Notes under the pieces: model-generated
Database searches by the model: none
What the model was told of the DNA's origin: nothing
The model's input: only the letters and a program-made list of their open reading frames with translations
In this document: in pieces, positions 34,026 through 62,755 of the stretch
Numbering within the stretch: position 1 is the first letter of the stretch
Layout of the letters: every line of letters starts with the position of its first letter
Program-made: the position numbers and the translations under genes
IMG/VR virus record: IMGVR_UViG_3300009408_000004
Location: 1-62,755 of that record
DNA length: 62,755 nucleotides
Strand: one strand, 5' to 3'
DNA from: a virus

Positions 34026-35390
34026 TCACATGTTCCAGTAGCTTCTTTTGGTAACCAACACAGGCGACACCAATGGTGACTGGTGCCTACGCTCACTCCA
34101 AGCCAACGCCCCGGCGATGAAAGAGTCAGGGGGGTGGCCAGAGCCAAAGAGATCGTTGGCTGTGGCGTAACGGTGCTCATCGTGAACAAACTTGATCCGA
34201 GGTGCTTGCACGGCCCGCTGTTCAATACCTGAGATGTACTCGTTGAAGCAGCCTTCACGTTGCCGACCCCTCAACACGAAGTCTTTGACTTTCATGCGGT
34301 CATAGTCAATCAAGTCGTCGAGCACGTCGCCCAGCCCTGTGGCATCGTGCACTAGCCGCCCACCGTACATCTGTACTCGCTGTTCCACGTCGGCCACCAT
34401 CTGTGGCCACGGTTTCCGGCCTGTGCGGAGAAATGCCACCATTTGCCACGGCTCCACGTCAACTCGATAAGTGGCGACAATCGTCCAGTCTCGCTCTTTG
34501 GCCCAGTCCACCCCAGTTACGTACTCGCCCATCGGGTCAGGCTGAGCAATAATGATCCTCTCGTCGGCGCTGCCCTCGTAGCTGCCAAGCTCAGGAGCAA
34601 AGGCCCAATCGACTGCCTCAGTGTTGATAGCTCGCCCGGCGAAGCTCGGTTCTTGCAAGTCATATTCCGTGTCCCACATCATGTTGGACACCTCAGTGCG
34701 CTTGCGATCCACCATTGACTGAGTGAGCCAGCCGTGCGGTTCGAGCGACTCCCGCCAGCACCACTCGTTGATCGGCCAGCCTTTCTCTTTGGCACGTTTG
34801 AGCAGCGTCGTCATTGTCCCATTGGGGTACTGGTGTGTCGAAGAAATCACAGTCTGAGACATCAAGCCACGAGCATCCATTGGCTGGCCCTGAGCAGCCT
34901 CGAATATCTCAAGCTCCATTTCGTCCACTTCGTCGAGCCTCAGCCGCTGAGGGTGCGGGCCGCGAACTGATTTCTGAGAAGCCATCAAAGCTACAATCCA
35001 AGCCCCGTTTTGGAGCTTGGTTTTGAATTGAGTCGGATCGTCTTTGAGCAGCTTCACTGGCGCTCGTGGAGCATCCCACATCTCATGCGTTACCTCATGG
35101 ACTCGCTGAGACTGTGACGCCGAGCCACCCAGCACAGTGACTTGCGCCCCCAAGCTGACAGATTCCGTCAGTGTCAGAACCCCCATCATCGTAGATTTGC
35201 CCCCAAAGCCTCTAGAAGCCTTCCAGAGCGTCACGGGGTATCGAGCGAAGTACGCATCGGCAAACGCAGTGAAAGGCGCTACATGGCCTTCACAGACGGC
35301 TTTGCGGGGGATCTCGTAGCCCCACATAGCTTTGACAAGCCACCATAGTTCATCATCATCTTGCGGAGGCCGAGCGAGGAACAGGCTCAT
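34026..35390 (-). CDS. terL: Terminase large subunit
   Basis: The 454-residue protein is the packaging motor and genome-cutting nuclease. ATPase motifs: Walker A SRGFGGKST near residue 60, Walker B LRLDEVDEME near 150, with a coupling motif ISSTH near 182. The nuclease domain shows GVDWAKERDWTI near 293 (first catalytic Asp), VHDATGLGD near 345 and PPDSFIAGALAW near 425. It is followed by an intergenic region with the portal promoter. The small subunit candidate is encoded about 2.2 kb upstream in transcription, with fibre-like genes in between. Confidence 0.93.
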   Translation of the reverse strand: MSLFLARPPQDDDELWWLVKAMWGYEIPRKAVCEGHVAPFTAFADAYFARYPVTLWKASRGFGGKSTMMGVLTLTESVSLGAQVTVLGGSASQSQRVHEVTHEMWDAPRAPVKLLKDDPTQFKTKLQNGAWIVALMASQKSVRGPHPQRLRLDEVDEMELEIFEAAQGQPMDARGLMSQTVISSTHQYPNGTMTTLLKRAKEKGWPINEWCWRESLEPHGWLTQSMVDRKRTEVSNMMWDTEYDLQEPSFAGRAINTEAVDWAFAPELGSYEGSADERIIIAQPDPMGEYVTGVDWAKERDWTIVATYRVDVEPWQMVAFLRTGRKPWPQMVADVEQRVQMYGGRLVHDATGLGDVLDDLIDYDRMKVKDFVLRGRQREGCFNEYISGIEQRAVQAPRIKFVHDEHRYATANDLFGSGHPPDSFIAGALAWSERRHQSPLVSPVLVTKRSYWNM

Positions 35391-36993: not shown

Positions 36994-37605
36994 TCATCTA
37001 ATGCGCAGGATTTCAAGAGTTGCGCCAGTCAGTGATTTGGTAGATCCACTACCATGCTGCACATCACAATATATAACGTCTGTAGCAGCAGCATAAACAC
37101 AGGCCACGCTAACTGACCCAGCTAGCGAAACTGTTGTGTCACCGGGCGAGTAGTACGCTGTTGTATTAACCACAACTCTAGCTGTAATGCCAGTTGTGCC
37201 ACTAGCGAAGGTGTACCTGAAAGCGATTGCGTACCAGCCAGACGATGGCACAGCATAGGTAGTTGCTCCAGCAGCGTGCCCATTTTTGGTGTCAGTGATC
37301 TCAGTGCCCCAAGGTACCGTAGTCAGCGTTGCAGTGAGCACTGACAAGGAACCATTGGACGCTCGAAAAGAAGTGTCGTCAAGCCAAGTGCTGGCGTATG
37401 TGACCCAAGCGCTACCGTCATACACCTCCAACATGCCAGTGTCAGACAGGTATGACACCATGCCTTCAGTCGGGGTGGAGATTGCAGTGGTACGAGCAGC
37501 GGCAGAAGCGAAGAACATCACACTTTGGTCTTGCAAATATGACTGCACATTGCCCTGAGATATCGTTTCACCTAGCACCCATGTGCGGTAGCCCGAGCCA
37601 GTCAT
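36994..37605 (-). CDS. Tail fibre-type protein with jelly-roll (C1q-like) domain
   Basis: The 203-residue protein has an N-terminal attachment segment (TWVLGETISQGNVQSYLQDQ, then TEGMVSYLSDTGMLEVYDGS) found in many phage virion proteins, and a C-terminal domain (about residues 95-203) whose pattern YAVPSSGWYAIAFRYTFASG and ACVYAAATDVIYCDV is typical of C1q/TNF-like jelly rolls. A trimeric receptor-binding tip is plausible. Its start overlaps the stop of the small terminase gene. Confidence 0.68.
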   Translation of the reverse strand: MTGSGYRTWVLGETISQGNVQSYLQDQSVMFFASAAARTTAISTPTEGMVSYLSDTGMLEVYDGSAWVTYASTWLDDTSFRASNGSLSVLTATLTTVPWGTEITDTKNGHAAGATTYAVPSSGWYAIAFRYTFASGTTGITARVVVNTTAYYSPGDTTVSLAGSVSVACVYAAATDVIYCDVQHGSGSTKSLTGATLEILRIR

Positions 37606-38246
37606 TGAGAAGCCCCTTCTTCTGAATCACTCACGACCTCGGCGTCAACCACTTCGTCGATAGCGCTAGCTGCCTCTTGTAGCGCTCGCAAGTAGTTGTC
37701 GCGGTCACCATCAGCCACGATAATTGTCTCTCTTACACCGTGGTTCACGTCAATTTTCTGAGGCGCAGCCAGACCGTACAGCCGCTCCATCCGATCCATG
37801 ATTGTCAAGGCTGTCTGGATTGAGGACTGGTCGCCTGTGTTGACTCGTGGCCATACCAGCATCAGCATGTGCTCTAGCCGACCGTAATGAATCTTGCGTA
37901 ACTCTTTGGCATTCTCTTGTAGTGAGGCATCCAAGCCTTTGGTGATTATCGAGCGAGCGGTTTCAGTGCTGGCGTAGCCGAGCTTTGCTGCAATCTGAAC
38001 ATACGATGCACCGGCCAGTTTGAGCGCTATTGCTTGCCGCTGGCGCTCTTTGGAACTCAAGCGTCTTGGCACATGAGTCGGGTTGCGAACTTCAATTTCA
38101 CTGCCGTCAAGCCCGTCATGCAGGATTTCGCCCCACTCGCCTGTATCAGATACAAGCGTTGCGCATGAGCTGTCCGATACTGGCACATCAGAATTGGCGG
38201 GCTTGTCCATTGGCGCAACTTTACAAGCTGTGCTCTTGCAATGCAA
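37602..38246 (-). CDS. Terminase small subunit candidate
   Basis: The 214-residue protein has a helix-turn-helix region at about residues 65-100 (RQRQAIALKLAGASYVQIAA), with the pattern of small terminases that recognise the packaging site. A coiled-coil helical section follows and the C-terminus is acidic (residues 180-214). The frame opens with TTG directly after the upstream stop (TGA at 38249-38247); an ATG at 38210 is an alternative start, and neither has a strong ribosome binding site. It is separated from the large subunit by four fibre-type genes, which is unusual. Confidence 0.68.
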   Translation of the reverse strand: MHCKSTACKVAPMDKPANSDVPVSDSSCATLVSDTGEWGEILHDGLDGSEIEVRNPTHVPRRLSSKERQRQAIALKLAGASYVQIAAKLGYASTETARSIITKGLDASLQENAKELRKIHYGRLEHMLMLVWPRVNTGDQSSIQTALTIMDRMERLYGLAAPQKIDVNHGVRETIIVADGDRDNYLRALQEAASAIDEVVDAEVVSDSEEGASQ

Positions 38247-41300: not shown

Positions 41301-41713
41301 CGTCGGCCTCCTTCAAGCAGGTGTCTGGCGGTGTCTACGGCGGGCTGCCTCACCCCGAACCGGACCCACGCCTCAGGCGAACTATCAAGTCGTTCACCGT
41401 CCATGACACCCACCATGAATCCGTCCAACGCTGCCCGTAGCCGTCCGATCTCGTCGGCTTTAGCTTCTCGGTCCCGTAGAATGTCTTCGATGTCTGCTTC
41501 TCCGAGCCTTCTATGGTCCCACCCGTCTCTGTTGGGCGCAGACCCTTCAAGAATGTAGTAGCTGGCGTCGCTGTAGCCTGCTTCCCAGCAATGGTTGACT
41601 CCTGTGGCCGAGGTGCGGACCTCTAGCCCTTTCTGGTAGGCGTGGAGTCTGTCCAGCCATTCGATCATTGTCTCACGGTCAGTCCCCTTGGATTCTTCTG
41701 TGTCTTTCGTCAT
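41297..41713 (-). CDS. Unknown protein sharing DEIGRLRAALD motif with neighbour
   Basis: A 138-residue protein from ATG 41713, chosen because AAAGGT lies 6-7 nt upstream and the ATG overlaps the stop of the pentapeptide-repeat gene. It has a Trp-containing helical start (MIEWLDRLHAYQKG), a middle part with HCWEAGYSDASYYI and the motif ADEIGRLRAALDGF near residue 95, which recurs in the following zinc-finger protein. Function unknown. Confidence 0.7.
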   Translation of the reverse strand: MTKDTEESKGTDRETMIEWLDRLHAYQKGLEVRTSATGVNHCWEAGYSDASYYILEGSAPNRDGWDHRRLGEADIEDILRDREAKADEIGRLRAALDGFMVGVMDGERLDSSPEAWVRFGVRQPAVDTARHLLEGGRR

Positions 41714-42462
41714 GGTGTGACCTTTCGACGTGCGTAACCATCCGGGCCACGCTCCCAATCACCGAGATTCGCATAGGTGAGGTGCGCCTCGGTGAGGTCC
41801 GCACAGGTCAGGTCCGCATAGGTCAGGTCCGCATAGGTCAAGTCCGCACAGGTCAGGTCCACCCCTGCGAGGTCCGCCCCGGTGAGGTGCGCCCCGGTGA
41901 GGTGCGCCCCGTAGAGATCCGCATTGCGGAGGTCCACATTGTAGAGGTCCACATTGTAGAGGTCCACATTGTAGAGGTGCGCCCCTGCGAGGTGCGCCCC
42001 TGCGAGGTGCGCACCTGCGAGGTGCGCCCCGGTGAGGTGCGCCCTGTAGAGGTCCGCCTCCGAGAGGTCCGCACCTCGGAGGTCCGCACCGTAGAGATCC
42101 GCATTGCGGAGGTCCGCACCTCGGCCGCATCCCCTGCGGAGCAGACCGGGAGCATCGAACCACTCGCCGACGGTGACGGCCCGCACCCTGACCATATCGT
42201 CGTCCTCAGCGAGCACGTCGGCAGGGTCGATCTCGACAGTGCAACACCGGCCCGTGGGGAATCCGGCTTGAGCGGCCCCCTTCCATGTCTTGGCGACACT
42301 GATGCCGTCACCCTCACGGCGTGAGCACACCGACCCGTGGTCGACTTCGGCGACGTTGTGGTCGGCACGGACCACTGTACCGATGGGCACGTTCCAGTCG
42401 AGTCCGTTACGGGTCGTGCCGTCCGGACGCACGGCCTTAAATAACCCCTCGGTCCTCATCAT
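41710..42462 (-). CDS. Pentapeptide-repeat protein
   Basis: Residues 1-105 form a mixed N-terminal domain (DVLAEDDDMVRVRAVTVGEW at its end). Then about 24 tandem pentapeptides of the A(D/H/N)LxX type run to near residue 235, which fold as a right-handed quadrilateral beta-helix. Some such proteins (MfpA, Qnr) mimic DNA and bind gyrase; many others have no known target. At the DNA level the region 41745-42130 is a 15-bp tandem repeat with near-identical units, so copy number probably varies. GC content is high here (43 of 60 bases in 42121-42180). Confidence 0.88.
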   Translation of the reverse strand: MMRTEGLFKAVRPDGTTRNGLDWNVPIGTVVRADHNVAEVDHGSVCSRREGDGISVAKTWKGAAQAGFPTGRCCTVEIDPADVLAEDDDMVRVRAVTVGEWFDAPGLLRRGCGRGADLRNADLYGADLRGADLSEADLYRAHLTGAHLAGAHLAGAHLAGAHLYNVDLYNVDLYNVDLRNADLYGAHLTGAHLTGADLAGVDLTCADLTYADLTYADLTCADLTEAHLTYANLGDWERGPDGYARRKVTP

Positions 42463-43243: not shown

Positions 43244-43647
43244 GCTGTTGCCTCCCAGTCACAATAAGCAAACACTGCTGTGGCAGCTAACTCGAATGCT
43301 TCGACTTTTGTCAGATCGACCCCTTCACGACCCATCTCGATGTTGAAAGCAAAGTCAATGAAATTACTTGACTGAGCAGCGACATCGCAGAACGCCGCCC
43401 CGGCGCTATCAACTTCTTGGTCGGAGAGCTTCACAACGAGGTAGCTGTAGCCGTCATCAGCGAGCAACAGCCGCATCGTCGAAGCGTTGGACGGGGTTGA
43501 GTTAGAGACAATGTTGGGAGTAGAGCTAACCCTGCTAGCCGGGCCACTAGTAGCCGGGCCACTAGTAGCCGGGCCACACGCCGAAGCGAACAGCAGTACA
43601 GCCATGGCCGCTACCGCCCTTTGCACCTTTCTTGTTTGGCACCTCAT
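43231..43647 (-). CDS. Predicted lipoprotein
   Basis: The 138-residue protein has a signal peptide of the lipoprotein class: basic start, hydrophobic core AAMAVLLFA and a lipobox ending in Cys near residue 24 (FASAC). A short tandem GPATS repeat follows. The mature domain is acidic with Cys residues near 87 and 129. Phage lipoproteins often act in superinfection exclusion or as outer-surface receptor blockers; that role is inferred. Its ATG overlaps the upstream stop. Confidence 0.75.
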   Translation of the reverse strand: MRCQTRKVQRAVAAMAVLLFASACGPATSGPATSGPASRVSSTPNIVSNSTPSNASTMRLLLADDGYSYLVVKLSDQEVDSAGAAFCDVAAQSSNFIDFAFNIEMGREGVDLTKVEAFELAATAVFAYCDWEATAWGY

Positions 43648-44330
43648 AGTTTTGCCTCATCAGCATCACTGGAGGCAGGGGCAACAGCAGTTTCGCCAGA
43701 CAGCCCGCCGAACACATCCTTGACTTTGGTATTCAGGCTCAACCCGAGTAGCTTCAGCCCTTGATCGGCCAGCATCAAAGCTGCTGAAAGTGCCGGGAGC
43801 AGCTCACTGTCGCTGGCGGTTGGGTCGAGCAGACGGCTGGTTGTGAAGTCACCAGCTGGCAGCAAGGCCATAGCAGCCATGTTGCCAGTGTTGGCTTTCT
43901 TGAGCGCCACTAGCATCCTCTCGATGTACTCGATGCCGTCTTCGTAGAGCAGGACTCGAATAAACAGCTCCCCAAGAGTTTCTGCCTGCGCCATCAAGCT
44001 GCTGAGAGTGAGGCTTTGTTCGCCGTACTTCGCCGCTATGTCAGGCCCAGCAGCGCTGTTCTCACAGGTGGCCCAGCTAGCAACGTGGCTGCCGGTCGGG
44101 GTCATGAGTACCCCTGCCGAGTTTCCTTGTGAAGTCTGCCAAACCATGTCGGCCAGCACCGACTCCACTTTGTCCCGGTCAGTGCGAAGCACGCCGTCTT
44201 CGTCTGCCGTGAGAAATGCTTCGTGACGGTAGCGCAGCTCGAACGTGAGCCATTGGTGCTTCTCGTGCTCTGCCTCAACACTTTCGGTGTCTGCTGGGTC
44301 TGTGGTTTCTATGGTTTCGCTTGTGCTCAT
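43644..44330 (-). CDS. Unknown 228-residue protein
   Basis: Starts at ATG 44330, with AAAGGAG 7 nt upstream. The first 30 residues are acidic and disordered; the remainder is mainly helical, with FELRYRHEAFLTADEDG near residue 30 and a Leu/Ala-rich helical region (LLPALSAALMLADQGLKLLG) near 190. No family recognised. It is first in a run of overlapping small genes that continues through the lipoprotein and membrane proteins to the pentapeptide-repeat gene. Confidence 0.72.
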   Translation of the reverse strand: MSTSETIETTDPADTESVEAEHEKHQWLTFELRYRHEAFLTADEDGVLRTDRDKVESVLADMVWQTSQGNSAGVLMTPTGSHVASWATCENSAAGPDIAAKYGEQSLTLSSLMAQAETLGELFIRVLLYEDGIEYIERMLVALKKANTGNMAAMALLPAGDFTTSRLLDPTASDSELLPALSAALMLADQGLKLLGLSLNTKVKDVFGGLSGETAVAPASSDADEAKL

Positions 44331-44457
44331 CGGCACGCTCCTTTTACTTGGCGATTCTGGTTGAGAACTTGTGTGGTGAGAAAGAGGGGGGCAGGAGCTA
44401 GCAAGTGCGGGTGCTGGAGCCGGGGTTAGCTCCCTCGCTGCTCAACTGCCCCCCAGA

Positions 44458-44485
44458 CTGGCAGCCGGATCAGAACAGCTGCCAG
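44458..44485 (-). terminator. Hairpin downstream of 44501 gene
   Basis: A perfect 8-bp stem (CTGGCAGC / GCTGCCAG) with a 12-nt loop lies 15 nt after the stop of the upstream gene. There is no T-tract, so it may be a weak or factor-assisted terminator. The surrounding gap 44331-44500 shows no other clear signal. Confidence 0.5.
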
Positions 44486-44500
44486 AACTTGATTGTCCGA

Positions 44501-44914
44501 TCAGTCGGAGAGGTCCACGACAAGACCTTCGACATCGGTATCAACATCATCGTCGCCATTGGCAGCAATGAACGATTCCACAACCTCTCCAAGTGCCGTG
44601 GTTGATGTTTGGTTTGTAGCGTCAACCAGCTCGTTGCCAGCTTCGCTCTTGGTCTTGCCGAGAACCCAGACCGTGAAGGTTGTGCCATTGTCAACATCGC
44701 TATCGGAGACAATGACAACCTTCTCTGCGATCTTCTTGTTGTAGACCGAAGTCCGCAAAGACTTGGCATTGGCCTCTGACAGCGGGCCAATCCTGAGCCA
44801 GCAGTTGTCGGCCGTAGCAAGTATCGCCTCGTGTATCACTGACCACCGGCCTCTACGGCTCCTGTGCGTAACAGGAGGGCCTTCCTGTGAGACTTCGATT
44901 TCGATGTCGTTCAT
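44501..44914 (-). CDS. Unknown 137-residue acidic protein behind strong promoter
   Basis: From ATG 44914 the protein reads NDIEIEVSQEGPPVTHRSRR, then a beta-rich domain with KKIAEKVVIVSDSDVDNG and WVLGKTKSEAGN, and ends in a very acidic tail (GDDDVDTDVEGLVVDLSD). A longer frame opens with TTG at 44974, but that codon lies within the putative -10 box, so it is unlikely to be the start. It is the only gene between the promoter and a hairpin, so it may be expressed strongly as a single unit. Function unknown; the acidic tail recalls small early takeover proteins and ssDNA-binding proteins. Confidence 0.7.
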   Translation of the reverse strand: MNDIEIEVSQEGPPVTHRSRRGRWSVIHEAILATADNCWLRIGPLSEANAKSLRTSVYNKKIAEKVVIVSDSDVDNGTTFTVWVLGKTKSEAGNELVDATNQTSTTALGEVVESFIAANGDDDVDTDVEGLVVDLSD

Positions 44915-44972
44915 ACTGACTGGTTCCACTTTGTGTACCTTTTCCGGGTTGGTTGGAAGTGATTGAGATATC

Positions 44973-45001
44973 AATGTACCAAAGATCCCACGACTTGTCT
45001 A
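44973..45001 (-). promoter_or_regulatory. Putative sigma70-type promoter
   Basis: Minus-strand -35 TAGACA (45001-44996) and -10 TACATT (44978-44973) with exactly 17 nt between. It would transcribe the single gene 44501-44914 from the border of the large non-coding region. Confidence 0.6.
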
Positions 45002-45284
45002 CAGCAAGCAAAAGATTCCCTGCCCAGTAGGTCAGCTAGAGCTAGAGCTGGCAACTAGTTCTCAGACATAGCTATGGCCCTCTTCTTACTTCAGCACTTA
45101 CCGGCTTGCTTTTAGCACTCTGTCATCTATTCACTAGTAGATCAGTAATGAGCTGATTATTCAATGTCAGCAATACTGCCTAAAAAAACAGATTTTGTTT
45201 AGCTGGTGAGCGACGGGCCTATTTCGACCTTTTTTCCAACTTTGGAGGGGGGGTGGGTCCCTCTTTACCCCTATTTCCTGATCC

Positions 45285-45308
45285 CCCACTACAAGCGTTT
45301 GTAGTGGG
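45285..45308. repeat. Perfect 10-bp inverted repeat
   Basis: Arms CCCACTACAA and TTGTAGTGGG with a 4-nt loop GCGT. It can form a very stable hairpin on either strand. No T-tract follows on either side, so it is not a typical intrinsic terminator. Confidence 0.85.
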
Positions 45309-45730
45309 AGCCGTCCCTGATAGGGGAGTTAATGAGGAGTGAGCTAGAGTCATTCCTTTGGGCCTTCGTTCCTCACGCCAATCCTTGGCCCGTGGACCCC
45401 GTGCCCGCTTCGCTGGGTTCAGCTTAGCACACCGTGTCAAGCTGTCAAGGGATTCTTTATGAGCCGTCGACAGGCTCTGTATTCGTTGATATGACAGGGC
45501 AAACAGCAGGTCGACATAGGGCTATATGCAATGACATCAATGCTCTAATTGATTGATATGTAACTGGATTGTCATGTGTGGGAGGGGCTGAGAGCCACCC
45601 ACGCCTAGTCATAGACGCCCTACAGGGTAGCTTCTCACTCCACATCAATTACTCTACTGGGCAGCTAAGCACCCCCTCATAGCACGCATACACACAACTG
45701 CTGGCACGCACATAGCTGCTGACATACAAC

Positions 45731-45775
45731 ATACGAGAGGCCCGCTAGCTGTGCTGCTAGTCAAGCCTCTCGTAT
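45731..45775. repeat. Perfect 11-bp inverted repeat with nested dyad
   Basis: Arms ATACGAGAGGC and GCCTCTCGTAT enclose 23 nt that contain a smaller CTAGC...GCTAG dyad. It lies about 50 bp after the stop of the 45828 gene and could end its transcript, or be part of an origin-like structure. Confidence 0.8.
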
Positions 45776-45827
45776 ACTGTGCTGTATGTTGTGCTGTGCT
45801 TGTTGTGTATGAGCTAACCCTGCGAAG

Positions 45828-46121
45828 CTAGAACAACCTGAGCTGTACCACACGTTGCTCAAGCGCTACACCAAACAGAACTAGCTGCTCTGTGTGCATC
45901 CCTATGTGCCAGCGTCCCGTGTCAGGGTCACGAGGCTGCTCTGGGTTCTTGAGTAGCCAGCTGTCGTACTCCCGCTGTGCCCTCGTTATACGGCCTCTCA
46001 CTGCCCCTTGTGCCTGTGCTCGCATTCGCTCTCGTGAGAACATCCCCACTTCGTGGTCGTGTGCGTGTAGCTGAGTTGCTGCGTGTAGCTGAGTTGCTGC
46101 GTGTAGCTGAGTGTCACTCAT
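45828..46121 (-). CDS. Unknown 97-residue protein with QLHAAT repeats
   Basis: ATG at 46121 has AGGAG 9 nt upstream and lies just after the WhiB-like stop. The N-terminus has nearly three tandem QLHAAT units, encoded by an 18-bp DNA repeat (46065-46112). A basic helical middle (RERMRAQAQGAVRGRITRAQ) and a C-terminal part with DPDTGRWHIGMHTEQLVLFG follow. Function unknown; its coupling to WhiB suggests a shared regulatory unit. Confidence 0.65.
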   Translation of the reverse strand: MSDTQLHAATQLHAATQLHAHDHEVGMFSRERMRAQAQGAVRGRITRAQREYDSWLLKNPEQPRDPDTGRWHIGMHTEQLVLFGVALEQRVVQLRLF

Positions 46122-46125
46122 CTGG

Positions 46126-46539
46126 TCATTCTCCTGCTGGGTTGTCTTGCGATCTCTGTAGTAGCCGCCTTTGCTCACGTAGCGCCTTGAGAGCCTTCCT
46201 GTGCCGCATGTCAGCTAACATGACCAGCTTCGGAGTCACTCTTCGCCTCACCGTTATGGCGCTCACCCGCTGTGCCTCTGTAAGCCCTCCTGAGATCCCG
46301 TACTGCTCCGAGGTGCTCAGTGCCCATTCCCGGCATTCGAGCTTCACTGAGCAGCTCTCACACACCATGAGCGCCCTTCTGGCCGTGTAGCTCCGCATAC
46401 ACGCTTCACCATGGCTGCTGTAGCACTTGGCCTGACAGCGATGGCGGTAGAACATCATTGTGTTGCCTCTGCAAGCCGCTTTGGCAGCCCATGAGCGGCC
46501 CATGGTGCAATCACTGCCAAGCAGCTCTGCGAAGCTCAT
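46126..46539 (-). CDS. WhiB-like transcription factor
   Basis: The 137-residue protein has the Wbl signature: Cys 23, then Cys 60-x2-Cys 63-x5-Cys 69, binding a 4Fe-4S cluster, followed by EQYGISGGLTEAQR, the G(I/V)xGG turn that contacts the host primary sigma factor. The C-terminal third is basic and probably binds DNA. An extra pair of Cys (35, 39, 47) lies in an insertion between the first two ligands, longer than usual. Wbl proteins occur only in Actinobacteria and their phages, where they alter host transcription. The ATG overlaps the RuvC-like stop. Confidence 0.88.
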   Translation of the reverse strand: MSFAELLGSDCTMGRSWAAKAACRGNTMMFYRHRCQAKCYSSHGEACMRSYTARRALMVCESCSVKLECREWALSTSEQYGISGGLTEAQRVSAITVRRRVTPKLVMLADMRHRKALKALREQRRLLQRSQDNPAGE

Positions 46540-47180
46540 GTGAGCCTTACAGCCTCAATAGCGGCCTCTGTGATGAGGTCCATGGCTACCTCGTCCATGC
46601 CATAGAGCGCTATCGCAGCGGCATCGTTGAGGTCGTCATCCGTGCCTGCTCGCTCAGAGAAGTGTGGCCAGCGCCGAGCGATCATGGCGTGGACATCAGC
46701 CTTGACTGCGTTCCCCATGCCGACGACAACCTTCTTCCAATGGCTCACATTGGCCATGCGCACCTCGATACCTGCCTCGTGGAGTGTAGCCTGCACTGCT
46801 CCCGAGGTAAAGGCTTGCGCCATGGTGGACCTGACTCCTCCACGACCGACCACTGGAGACTCCACGTAGGCGACCACTGGCAGCTTGTCATCCCTGTTAG
46901 TTCTGTCCTCTTTGTCATGGTGTCTTGGCTTGCACTCTGGCCACTTAGCCCATACAGCTTCGATGAAGTGCCTCGTCACCTTGGCACCATTGGCACACGC
47001 CTCTGGGCCGCTCTTCTTGCTCAGCTTCACAGCCTTGTAGGCCAGATATTCGTTGGAGTCACCATGGCCGGGAGCAGCAACCCCACGAGCCACGAAGGCT
47101 AGCCTCTTGCTTGCTGGATCAATGCCGATGACCACTGCCCCTACCATGGTGCTGCTCGCGGTTGTGCTCGTGTCGCTCAT
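46536..47180 (-). CDS. RuvC-like Holliday junction resolvase
   Basis: The 214-residue protein has the RNase H fold pattern of RuvC-type nucleases: VVIGIDPASKRLAFVA (first Asp near 21), VVAYVESPVVGRGGVRSTMA (Glu near 105), VSHWKKVVVGMGNAVKADV, and GTDDDLNDAAAIALYGM with the last acidic pair. It would cut branched DNA before packaging. ATG 47180 has GGGAG 6 nt upstream. The gene lies in an operon with WhiB downstream and unknown genes upstream. Confidence 0.85.
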   Translation of the reverse strand: MSDTSTTASSTMVGAVVIGIDPASKRLAFVARGVAAPGHGDSNEYLAYKAVKLSKKSGPEACANGAKVTRHFIEAVWAKWPECKPRHHDKEDRTNRDDKLPVVAYVESPVVGRGGVRSTMAQAFTSGAVQATLHEAGIEVRMANVSHWKKVVVGMGNAVKADVHAMIARRWPHFSERAGTDDDLNDAAAIALYGMDEVAMDLITEAAIEAVRLT

Positions 47181-56383: not shown

Positions 56384-57063
56384 GCTTGCCTCTCTGCGGA
56401 TTGCCAATTGATGGTGCTGCCAGCTGGGGCGGGCTTGAAGCAAGCCCACACTGAGATCACACCATCAGCAGTGCGCTGGCGGGTGGTGACCTTGTGGTAG
56501 GTGAGTGCATTCCGAGCACGGTTCACGGCCGGGCGCTCAGCAGAAGTGAGCACGATGGCCCATCGGCCGGGGTTGGCCTTGAGGGCCTCAGCGATGGTTA
56601 CCCACGACTCACGCTCTTGCATGGGCGGAGTAGTGTCCTGCCAGTCCAGCTCGACACTGGCCACAACAGGTGCTGGAGCTTCAACAACAGGTGCTGGAGC
56701 TTCAACAACAGGTGCTGGAGCTTCAACAACAGGTGCTGGAGCTTCAACAACAGGTGCTGGAGCTTCAACAACAGGTGCTGGAGCTTCAGTAGCGGCCTCT
56801 AGGGGCGTTGCTACTGCGACTGGAGCTTCTGGGTGGTGTGACGATGCCATGGCGGCAGCCACGCTCACTACCGGGGCTGTTGGAGCCAGCTCTAGGCCAG
56901 CTGCCACTCGACAGCCACCAACATGGCAGTTGCCATGGCTACCGCGGTCGTGGTCGTCGAGAATGCGTGACCCGGTTGGGTCCTTGACTGTGCTGTGGCC
57001 GTCACACTCTCTGAGTGTCTTGCCACAGGCTGGACATCCGATATTTACTTGGGTGAGGTTCAT
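56380..57063 (-). CDS. Unknown protein with zinc finger and EAPAPVV repeats
   Basis: A 227-residue protein from ATG 57063 (AAAGGAGG 6 nt upstream). The N-terminal part has CPACGKTLREC plus NCHVGGC, a likely zinc site. Residues near 93-134 are six exact EAPAPVV repeats, forming a stiff Pro-rich linker. The C-terminal domain (about 150-225: SWVTIAEALKANPGRWAIVL, then RNALTYHKVTTRQRTADGVI) is a small conserved actinophage-type domain of unknown function. Its stop overlaps the deacetylase start. Confidence 0.7.
   Translation of the reverse strand: MNLTQVNIGCPACGKTLRECDGHSTVKDPTGSRILDDHDRGSHGNCHVGGCRVAAGLELAPTAPVVSVAAAMASSHHPEAPVAVATPLEAATEAPAPVVEAPAPVVEAPAPVVEAPAPVVEAPAPVVEAPAPVVASVELDWQDTTPPMQERESWVTIAEALKANPGRWAIVLTSAERPAVNRARNALTYHKVTTRQRTADGVISVWACFKPAPAGSTINWQSAERQA
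56663..56788 (-). repeat. 21-bp tandem repeat (six units)
   Basis: Six exact units of 21 bp encode EAPAPVV. The identity at third positions shows recent expansion; unit number is likely to vary between isolates or be miscounted in assembly. Confidence 0.95.
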
Positions 57064-57101: not shown

Positions 57102-59198
57102 TCATGTAAACAGAGCTTCTTCTTGGAGCGCTTGCTCTAGCTCACCGGCGATGAAGCCGAATGCGGTAGCTGGTGAGCCAGTGATGCCCACTGCATGATG
57201 GTGCCGTCGGTCAGCCTTTAGCTGGGTTATCTTGCCTTCAGTGAAGGTGGTGGGCCCGTAGGAAGACTGGCTACTCCCTTGGAGGAATAGCAGGTAGCTC
57301 TTAACGCCCATGCGATTCATCAGCTCGATGTTTTGGTGGCACACAGTTGTGTTCGTGCGATCCCATTCACCGTCGGTGAGGGTGAACAGTAGTTTGTGTT
57401 TCGCAGTGCTGGCCTGAAAGATCAGCAATGCCGCCTCAATCGCCGCAACCGGGTTGGTGCCGCCAGTGGTTGTCAGCAGCCTTGGGGTAAGCATTGGCTC
57501 CATCGGTAGAGCTACCGTGTAGCTGCTGGTGTTGTACCCAATAGCTGTGCATGGGATGTCGTTGTCGCAGCAGGCTGTATGGATAGTCCATAGCCCATCG
57601 GATGTCGGGCCAGCCAAGCGATGGGACATGGACGACGAGCCATCGCACAAGATGACGACTTCAACAGTTGCTGCATCTTCGCCGTTGTCATTCCACTGCT
57701 CAAACACGTCAAGTCCAGCGCCTCTAGACTCCATGAGGGCCGTTATGTCCAGCCGTCCCATGGACTGGTCAGGGACCCACTGCGGCTCTTGCGCTCCAAT
57801 CAAGGTGCCCATGACTTCACTGAGCCTCCGCCTCGACCCTTCCACCTTCAAGCTCGCATCGTAAGAGCAGTTAAACGCTAGCTCTTCAACAGTCAGAGCG
57901 TGCCCGATGGTCGAATGTTTGCAAGCAGCTTCCAGCGTTTGCACGTCGTCGATTGCTGAGGCGGCTACATCGCTGTTGGCCTCCGCCATGGCGTCAGCTA
58001 GCAGGTCTTCCCACTCAGCCAGCAAGCCACTGCCAGCGCCAGCGCCATTAGCGCCGCCAGCATCAGTGCCAGCATCAGTGCCAGCATCAGTGCCAGCATC
58101 AGTGCCAGCATCACTGCCAGCGCCAGCGCCATTAGCGCCGCCAGCATCAGTGCCAGCATCAGTGCCAGCATCAGTGCCAGCATCAGTGCCAGCATCAGTG
58201 CCAGCATCAGTGCCAGCATCAGCATCAGCATCAGCGCCAGCATCAGCATCAGCGCCAGCGTCAGCATCAGCGCCAGCGTTGCTCTGAGCGTCCTTTTGCA
58301 TTGACTTGTCGCTGCGGCCAGTGACCATGGTCCCTTGGTCGTCGAGCAAGTGCCCGGTGCCGACCTGCGTCCCTGACATTCCAGTGCGGTAGACGATTTG
58401 GCTAAACTGGCAAACCAGTTCGAGCGCCCGAGCACCGTCCTTAGGGAAACTCAAGGTGAGGTACTCGTCGATGATGGCGGCTGCCTCGTCAGTGATAGGG
58501 ACCCCATGAGTGGTGGCGAATACTGAGCGAGCCAGCTGCCGCACCTTGGCGGGGACATGGTGACGACCGTGGATCAGCAGCCAGCTCGTAGTGCTAGCTT
58601 GCGGTGTCGGTACGAGTGGGTTGCCCTCAAAAGTCTGCACTCTGACTAGGTGCTTCATCGCTACGAGCTGTAGCTCCACCTTGGCGGACGGCCAAGTGGC
58701 GATAAAGAGCCGCTCAATCCTCTGGTCCTCAAGGATGTTGTAGGCGTCCCAGAGCCGCGGCCATAGGCCCGAGCCAGAGATTTCCTTCAAGATCAGAGAA
58801 GTTGGCTTCTGGGCCCGGCGAGGGGTGAACAGCACATGAGCCAGCTCATGGTAGACCAACCCTCTTGTGGTGCCAACAGCACCGATCATGCCAGAGGAAT
58901 GGCTGAGGTACACGGAGTCGTAGAGTGCGTTGTCGATGATGGCGTTGTCGATGACGATGGTCTGGCCATCAGTCTCAGCAGTTTGGTGGCTTGTAGTTCC
59001 GAACTTAACAGCGACATCGTGCTTGCTGACGACCCGAGCGACCTTGCCAAAGATGCGGGCCAGCATCAGCTTGCGCTGGAGGCAAGCCCGGTCCTTCGTG
59101 CTGCCTTCAACCGAAGCGATTTGGCGGAAGCCATCATTGCTGGAGTTTGAGCCGGGGGCTTCCCTGCCGTCTTTGCGCCTTGCGCTTCTTCTAGCCAT
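57102..59198 (-). CDS. VWA-domain protein with HExxH motif (CobT-like)
   Basis: The 698-residue protein has an N-terminal domain with GLVYHELAHVLFTP near residue 115, a zinc metallopeptidase-like HExxH, then a long low-complexity acidic linker of DAGTDAG and DADAGA repeats (about 305-395), and a C-terminal von Willebrand A domain whose MIDAS reads LCDGSSSMS near residue 525 (DxSxS), with TGGTNP and TDGEWD completing the site. Together with the AAA+ ATPase encoded directly upstream it forms a MoxR/CobS-VWA pair, in which the ATPase remodels a target with the VWA partner as adaptor. ATG overlaps the ATPase stop. Confidence 0.83.
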   Translation of the reverse strand: MARRSARRKDGREAPGSNSSNDGFRQIASVEGSTKDRACLQRKLMLARIFGKVARVVSKHDVAVKFGTTSHQTAETDGQTIVIDNAIIDNALYDSVYLSHSSGMIGAVGTTRGLVYHELAHVLFTPRRAQKPTSLILKEISGSGLWPRLWDAYNILEDQRIERLFIATWPSAKVELQLVAMKHLVRVQTFEGNPLVPTPQASTTSWLLIHGRHHVPAKVRQLARSVFATTHGVPITDEAAAIIDEYLTLSFPKDGARALELVCQFSQIVYRTGMSGTQVGTGHLLDDQGTMVTGRSDKSMQKDAQSNAGADADAGADADAGADADADAGTDAGTDAGTDAGTDAGTDAGTDAGGANGAGAGSDAGTDAGTDAGTDAGTDAGGANGAGAGSGLLAEWEDLLADAMAEANSDVAASAIDDVQTLEAACKHSTIGHALTVEELAFNCSYDASLKVEGSRRRLSEVMGTLIGAQEPQWVPDQSMGRLDITALMESRGAGLDVFEQWNDNGEDAATVEVVILCDGSSSMSHRLAGPTSDGLWTIHTACCDNDIPCTAIGYNTSSYTVALPMEPMLTPRLLTTTGGTNPVAAIEAALLIFQASTAKHKLLFTLTDGEWDRTNTTVCHQNIELMNRMGVKSYLLFLQGSSQSSYGPTTFTEGKITQLKADRRHHHAVGITGSPATAFGFIAGELEQALQEEALFT
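58019..58280 (-). repeat. Short tandem repeats encoding DAG/TDAG tract
   Basis: Runs of 12-bp and 6-bp units (GCATCAGTGCCA-type on the plus strand) encode the acidic linker of the VWA protein. It includes a larger duplication: the GGANGAGAGS block occurs twice. Length is likely unstable. Confidence 0.9.
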
Positions 59199-62404: not shown

Positions 62405-62755
62405 GTGGCAGGCAAAGACGAAGTGCTGTTCATCTCAGCAATTTTGCGGCAGCAAGATCACAAGACAGCGGCGCTGCATGGGGTAGCGCCAGAATGGTTT
62501 CACAGCTACCCAACTGAGTGGCAATGGATCGAGCAGTACATCGGTGACCATCATCGCTGCCCCTCCAAGACCGTGTTCCGATCTCGATGGCCGGACTTCA
62601 AGATCGTCACCAGTGACGACATCGACTACTGCCTCGGCCAGCTCAGGGATAGCCACGTCCGACACTCGCTAGGGGTCGCTATCGAAACAACCATTGGGCA
62701 GATGAAGGACCTAACACCGGGCGATCAAATGCTCGACTCGATTGCCTCGTCGGTT
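62405..62755 (+). CDS. dnaB: Replicative DnaB-type helicase (5' part; continues at 1)
   Basis: GTG at 62405 is the start of the helicase; AAGGAGGT ends 4 nt before it. The N-terminal residues read AGKDEVLFISAILRQQDHKT. Bases 62518-62755 duplicate 1-238, so the frame continues without break at position 1. The N-terminal domain binds primase in this family. Confidence 0.92.
   Translation, partial: MAGKDEVLFISAILRQQDHKTAALHGVAPEWFHSYPTEWQWIEQYIGDHHRCPSKTVFRSRWPDFKIVTSDDIDYCLGQLRDSHVRHSLGVAIETTIGQMKDLTPGDQMLDSIASSV
62518..62755. repeat. Right copy of terminal direct repeat
   Basis: Exact match to 1-238; see that entry. It should be counted once in the circular genome. Confidence 0.97.

Follow-up and report, generated by a model that had tools for sequence, protein, structure and literature searches.

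Most of what is known about where packaging starts comes from cultured phages. The pac sites known from headful phages often lie inside the TerS gene. The cos site of lambda-like phages is described as a region of approximately 200 bp that comprises the subsites cosQ, cosN and cosB (PMC4669245). For Microbacterium phage Appa, a circularly permuted genome is recorded (PMC7302621); Appa is among the distant TerS relatives of the phage analysed here. A packaging site containing a C-tract was not met among the titles and abstract beginnings of the literature searched. The locus compared with these systems is a gene-free stretch in a viral genome record of 62,755 bases (the window, i.e. the whole stretch of DNA analysed). 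On balance, this stretch is likely to carry a packaging-initiation site (pac or cos) at 45259-45178, as judged from comparisons with related phages.

A junction between two operons

The first 238 bases of the window are repeated exactly as its last 238 (1-238 and 62518-62755). The 62,755-base record is thus a complete circular map of 62,517 bp, and the gene-free stretch at 45002-45827 genuinely separates the replication block from the late block. Nearly all long open reading frames (ORFs) are located on the minus strand. In the sense of transcription, the stretch is preceded by genes for a DNA polymerase, a Cas4-like exonuclease, a small protein common to relatives, a RuvC-like resolvase and WhiB and by another small gene, and it is followed by small genes and those for an amidase endolysin, TerS, TerL and the portal. 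In this gene order, the stretch marks the point where the replication operon gives way to the late operon, in agreement with the preliminary description, which had it separate the replication genes from another block. The small gene that closes the upstream block (45828-46178, minus strand) and the first gene downstream of the junction (44501-44914, minus strand), whose homologue occupies the matching place in the relative L003, are of unknown function. The start of the latter is very probably the ATG at 44914, from which the predicted protein begins MNDIEIEVSQEGPP..., resembling MSVEIELSHEGPP... of L003; with this start, the gene-free stretch extends over 44915-45827 (913 bp).

The region had been described as gene-free, with AT-rich and C-rich parts, and as the only long one of its kind. 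ORFs of at least 74 aa were indeed absent from 45002-45827. Two short minus-strand ORFs of 73 and 63 aa within it are regarded as unused, and comparison of the DNA with that of the corresponding stretches in three relatives revealed no common reading frame in their area. The G+C content of 44975-45830 is 49.9%, compared with 56.6% for the genome. The stretch is the longest gene-free region but not the sole one, as a crude gene caller listed ten gaps of at least 250 bp, some of which contain short genes that it missed. Tandem repeats were seen at several places in the window: an 18-bp perfect repeat of 2.8 copies at 46062-46112, in the small gene right of the junction (protein repeat TQLHAA); 15-bp repeats at 41776-42124 in the ORF 41710-42462, read as pentapeptide repeats; six units of 21 bp with 100% matches at 56663-56788; and a 12/24-bp array at 58018-58277 inside a 698-aa ORF.

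Relatives were collected with several queries. The DNA polymerase retrieved seven contigs with 53-61% identity and 43 in all by alignment, and searches with TerL yielded 10 and then 80 loci. A matching gene-free stretch was found in L003 and in L004/L005. The DNA of 44000-47000 had no match among isolated phages, and the genes at 43644 and 46536, used as single queries, retrieved no relatives. In the genome collection, the TerS alignment gave no match; TerL matched eight contigs of metagenome bins, in which neither a TerS relative nor a match to the profile described below was found.

The AT-rich and C-rich parts of the stretch, together with its dyads, could constitute a replication origin, for which the position beside the replication genes and the A/T tracts speak. 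The cumulative GC skew, proposed as a check, has its detrended minimum at 49.4 kb, with 46.6-52.0 kb as the bootstrap range; this is within about 4-6 kb of the stretch, on its right, but lies outside it. Moreover, no direct-repeat family of at least three copies was found in the gene-free stretch. The replication block is common to many relatives, and in several of them another gene follows directly after WhiB without such a stretch; the element common to the relatives instead accompanies TerS (see below). An origin in this place is thus very unlikely. At about 49-52 kb of the window, the GC skew changes sign without a change of gene orientation.

The small terminase and a two-part element

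The protein encoded at 37602-38246 (minus strand) is, as judged from its predicted structure and its similarity to annotated TerS proteins, a small terminase with a helix-turn-helix (HTH) and a helical region, and would be expected to bind the packaging site. An 18-sequence alignment belongs to the evidence for this identity, and the AF2 model of the protein (pLDDT 76) has as its best match among viral structures a 'Terminase small subunit' (E 3e-8), and proteins of isolated phages recorded as terminase small subunit match it as well. Comparisons with the PDB, by sequence and by Foldseek, gave no significant match. PHROG 645 bears the label 'Rnase E', and the phage records matching TerS use this label beside 'terminase small subunit'. 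The large terminase gene (34026-35390, minus strand) matched PHROG 9 (E 1e-7); Pfam provided no name for TerL or most of the small genes. In L047, on the contig of L003, the TerL frame is broken into two pieces, with stop codons in the translation.

In several relatives, intergenic C-tracts of 6 to 10 nucleotides lie around TerL, just behind TerS. A C-tract at most 600 nt 3' of TerS and on the TerS strand was detected at 13 of 22 distinct loci, a set from which duplicate contigs were dropped and the window, L003 and L004 were left out, their site being upstream of TerS; with these three counted as misses, the fraction is 13/25. Elsewhere, the 257,368 remaining sense bases contained 12 tracts of this class (binomial probability 2e-15, with relatedness ignored), and an opposite-strand tract was present at only one of 23 loci. 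When TerS proteins were grouped at 80% identity, the tract was found in 10 of the 18 resulting clusters, a count that takes in L148, found by its motif and belonging to the cluster of L065. The tract was missing in L057, L058, L062 and six more distant loci, and an intergenic tract was found in none of eight isolated phages whose TerS is roughly 28-34% identical. In L073, L074, L075 and L077, TerS and TerL are separated by about 8 kb, and TerS is followed by the site after about 380 nt, which indicates, at the level of gene arrangement, that the site is linked with TerS rather than with TerL.

The corresponding element of the window (45178-45259, minus strand, i.e. the gene strand, like TerS) consists of a C-tract (45257-45247) followed by AAAGTTGG (45243-45236), then TCACC(A) (45209-45204) and a T7 tract (45188-45182). 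This arrangement follows the layout of the family, in which a TCACC/TAGCC-like box, accompanied by an A/T tract, succeeds the C-tract after about 35-50 nt. When the sites are aligned, the second box appears some 45-50 nt further along, and A/T tracts come next; it reads TAGCCA in one group, while the window, L058 and L073 have TCACC. Over 78 columns, the window and L003 share the C-tract and T-tract at the same spacing, and L004 has a C10 tract with T-runs further on. The length of the C-tract varies between near-identical relatives, so that it does not represent a fixed cut sequence; the contigs L004 and L005, for instance, are 99.99% identical over 8.6 kb and carry tracts of 10 nucleotides (L004 15128) and 9 nucleotides (L005 20157), respectively.

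A profile of 16 sites from other phages, built without the window, had its top match in the window genome at 45259-45178 (E 1.7e-4; next match, E 35), although its training sites were chosen by their C-tract and the family is thus partly built on the feature noticed first. Of 80 control profiles derived from C-tracts elsewhere, half taken without restriction (40) and half chosen to include a T-run (40), none yielded a value below 0.52. With only one profile match below E 1, the element is present as a single copy in the window genome. Leave-one-out profiles recovered the site as the top match in 7/11 genomes, with failures for L004, L003, L073 and G004, so that the motif family is loose. When a 17-site profile was run over 166 loci (1.96 Mb), matches below E 1 were confined to the TerS strand and lay no more than 1.6 kb from the 3' end of TerS, most of them being training sites or copies thereof; the best match that was neither (E 0.1) was situated in a gene-free region upstream of TerS in L062. 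When all viral contigs were scanned for a two-part pattern, three were returned, two of which had served to write the pattern. In the new one, L148, TerS ends about 270 nt before the site and TerL starts about 570 nt after it; in all three, both terminase genes are located beside the site. On this basis, membership of 45259-45178 in the motif family is well supported by sequence comparison.

Other comparisons were less telling, and a clear signal was obtained only from the TerS-anchored count and from the profile. The 78-nt alignment of the window with L003 by itself reached E 1.2, a 40-nt match between the window and L058 was equalled by one of 60 random pieces, and a C-tract alone is expected by chance in the window's stretch with a probability of 0.065. 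A loose first pattern (a C-tract with T5 anywhere) was discarded; it matched in 12/85 loci and gave 14 reverse-strand matches in the 80 loci so checked, and is thus not strand-specific. On the minus strand at 44391, between the two genes left of the junction, there is another intergenic C6 tract, after which TCTTTCTC follows; it was not listed by the profile.

Hairpins, folding and promoter-like elements

The two perfect hairpins reported for the region were confirmed at 45285-45308 (10 bp, beside the C-tract) and 45731-45775 (11 bp). Perfect hairpins with a stem of at least 10 bp occur three times in the whole genome, two of them in this region, and in 300 dinucleotide shuffles of the region one such hairpin arose in three cases and two in none. 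The second hairpin, with its stem at 45731-45741/45765-45775, is part of a large dyad with a nested dyad (45726-45795, minus strand) directly behind the 3' end of the replication block's final gene. With a folding z-score of -5.7 for 45690-45830 on the minus strand, it is a strong dyad at which early transcription may end. Counterparts of the hairpins and the dyad were not found in L003, L004, L058 and L062.

The stretch could also encode a large structured non-coding RNA transcribed from the plus strand and closed by the perfect long-range pairing of two 11-bp arms (45020-45030/45654-45664). The plus strand of 45010-45680 folds better than shuffled sequences, with z -5.3 for the 671-nt fold and none of 20 shuffles as good. 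However, 200-nt segments within 45000-45574 reached only z -2.4 on either strand, no lower than values also found among 40 control places (minima -3.5 and -3.7), and those that stand out cover the large dyad (45600-45874), more or less on both strands. Rfam 15 gave no match for the region at the gathering threshold, and at E values up to 10 it returned only chance-level matches to eukaryotic snoRNAs, miRNAs and lncRNAs, which were rejected. The four relatives mentioned above lack the hairpins, and no relative is close enough for an alignment deep enough for covariation. Such an RNA appears improbable.

A promoter reading outward on the left side had also been claimed, probably TAGACA-17-TACATT at 45001-44973. 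This single match does not rise above the level of shuffled sequences (mean 1.1). A different promoter-like element, CTTGACAGCTTGACACGGTGTGCTA (45425-45449, minus strand), is 84% identical over 25 nt to the matching place of L003. A degenerate pattern of it had one match in the viral contigs, in the L003 contig, and no counterpart was found in L004, L053, L057, L058, L059 and L062 with up to 5 mismatches allowed.

The junction joins two operons of the same sense, and the two-part element, like its relatives, always lies upstream of a same-sense gene. This finding speaks against packaging insofar as a promoter or leader element would give the same pattern. Together with the 25-nt element common to the window and L003, it agrees with a late-gene promoter or leader region in which the common element would serve to transcribe the late operon and the dyad would act as an early terminator. 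Against this interpretation, the element is present in a single copy per genome, goes with TerS rather than with any given downstream gene, and had no sigma-70-like match in the scan. We consider it rather unlikely that the two-part element acts in this manner.

The proposed packaging start and known systems

Of the functions initially put forward for the region (origin, packaging site or non-coding RNA), packaging is the one that gained support, through the two-part element of a motif family linked with TerS, whereas an origin did not. We infer from sequence that this element functions as the packaging start, given its occurrence on the TerS strand near TerS in relatives, the profile match and its single copy per genome. 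TerS would bind the A/T tract together with the second part, the initial cut by TerL would fall in or close to the C-tract, and packaging would proceed into the late genes. The large dyad could end or protect the early transcript, and the late transcript could start at the promoter-like element 45449-45425. The main irregularity is the distance between the site and TerS in the window, where TerS follows 7 kb downstream, with lysis and other genes in between; this distance exceeds the about 1.6 kb seen in relatives, a value that describes the matches there and need not be a requirement.

None of the contigs was seen to end at the C-tract. G005, like the window, has overlapping ends (266 bp, 98.5% identical in G005); these overlaps and a G004 contig that stops between TerS and TerL are compatible with either mode, cos or pac. 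By analogy with the circularly permuted Appa, the evidence leans towards headful packaging. The element could tentatively be assigned, with nearly even chances, to an undescribed class of packaging starts that combines a C-tract of freely drifting length with a TCACC/TAGCC box and an A/T tract, travels with TerS apart from TerL and has here been left 7 kb from TerS. A sequence signal legible in uncultured genomes by themselves would make genome ends, packaging mode and transduction potential predictable for an environmental phage group without a close cultured relative in the collection searched.

Among described small terminases, the TerS model, with its HTH and long helices, aligns with those of G20c and P74-26 (Z 7.0 and 6.2), a weak match given Z values under 8, an rmsd of about 8 A and a sequence identity of 10-13%. 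Like lambda cos, in which the cutting and TerS-binding parts are separate, the element would be a compact multi-part site at the start of packaging. It differs from lambda cos in that the C-tract varies in length within the window's group and that the site, known here from sequence alone, follows the 3' end of TerS in most relatives, whereas in the window it precedes TerS by 7 kb. Unlike known pac sites, the element is intergenic, and Appa has no C-tract at this place. With the pac sites of headful phages, it shares the use of a single start site, for which recognition by TerS is proposed in the window.
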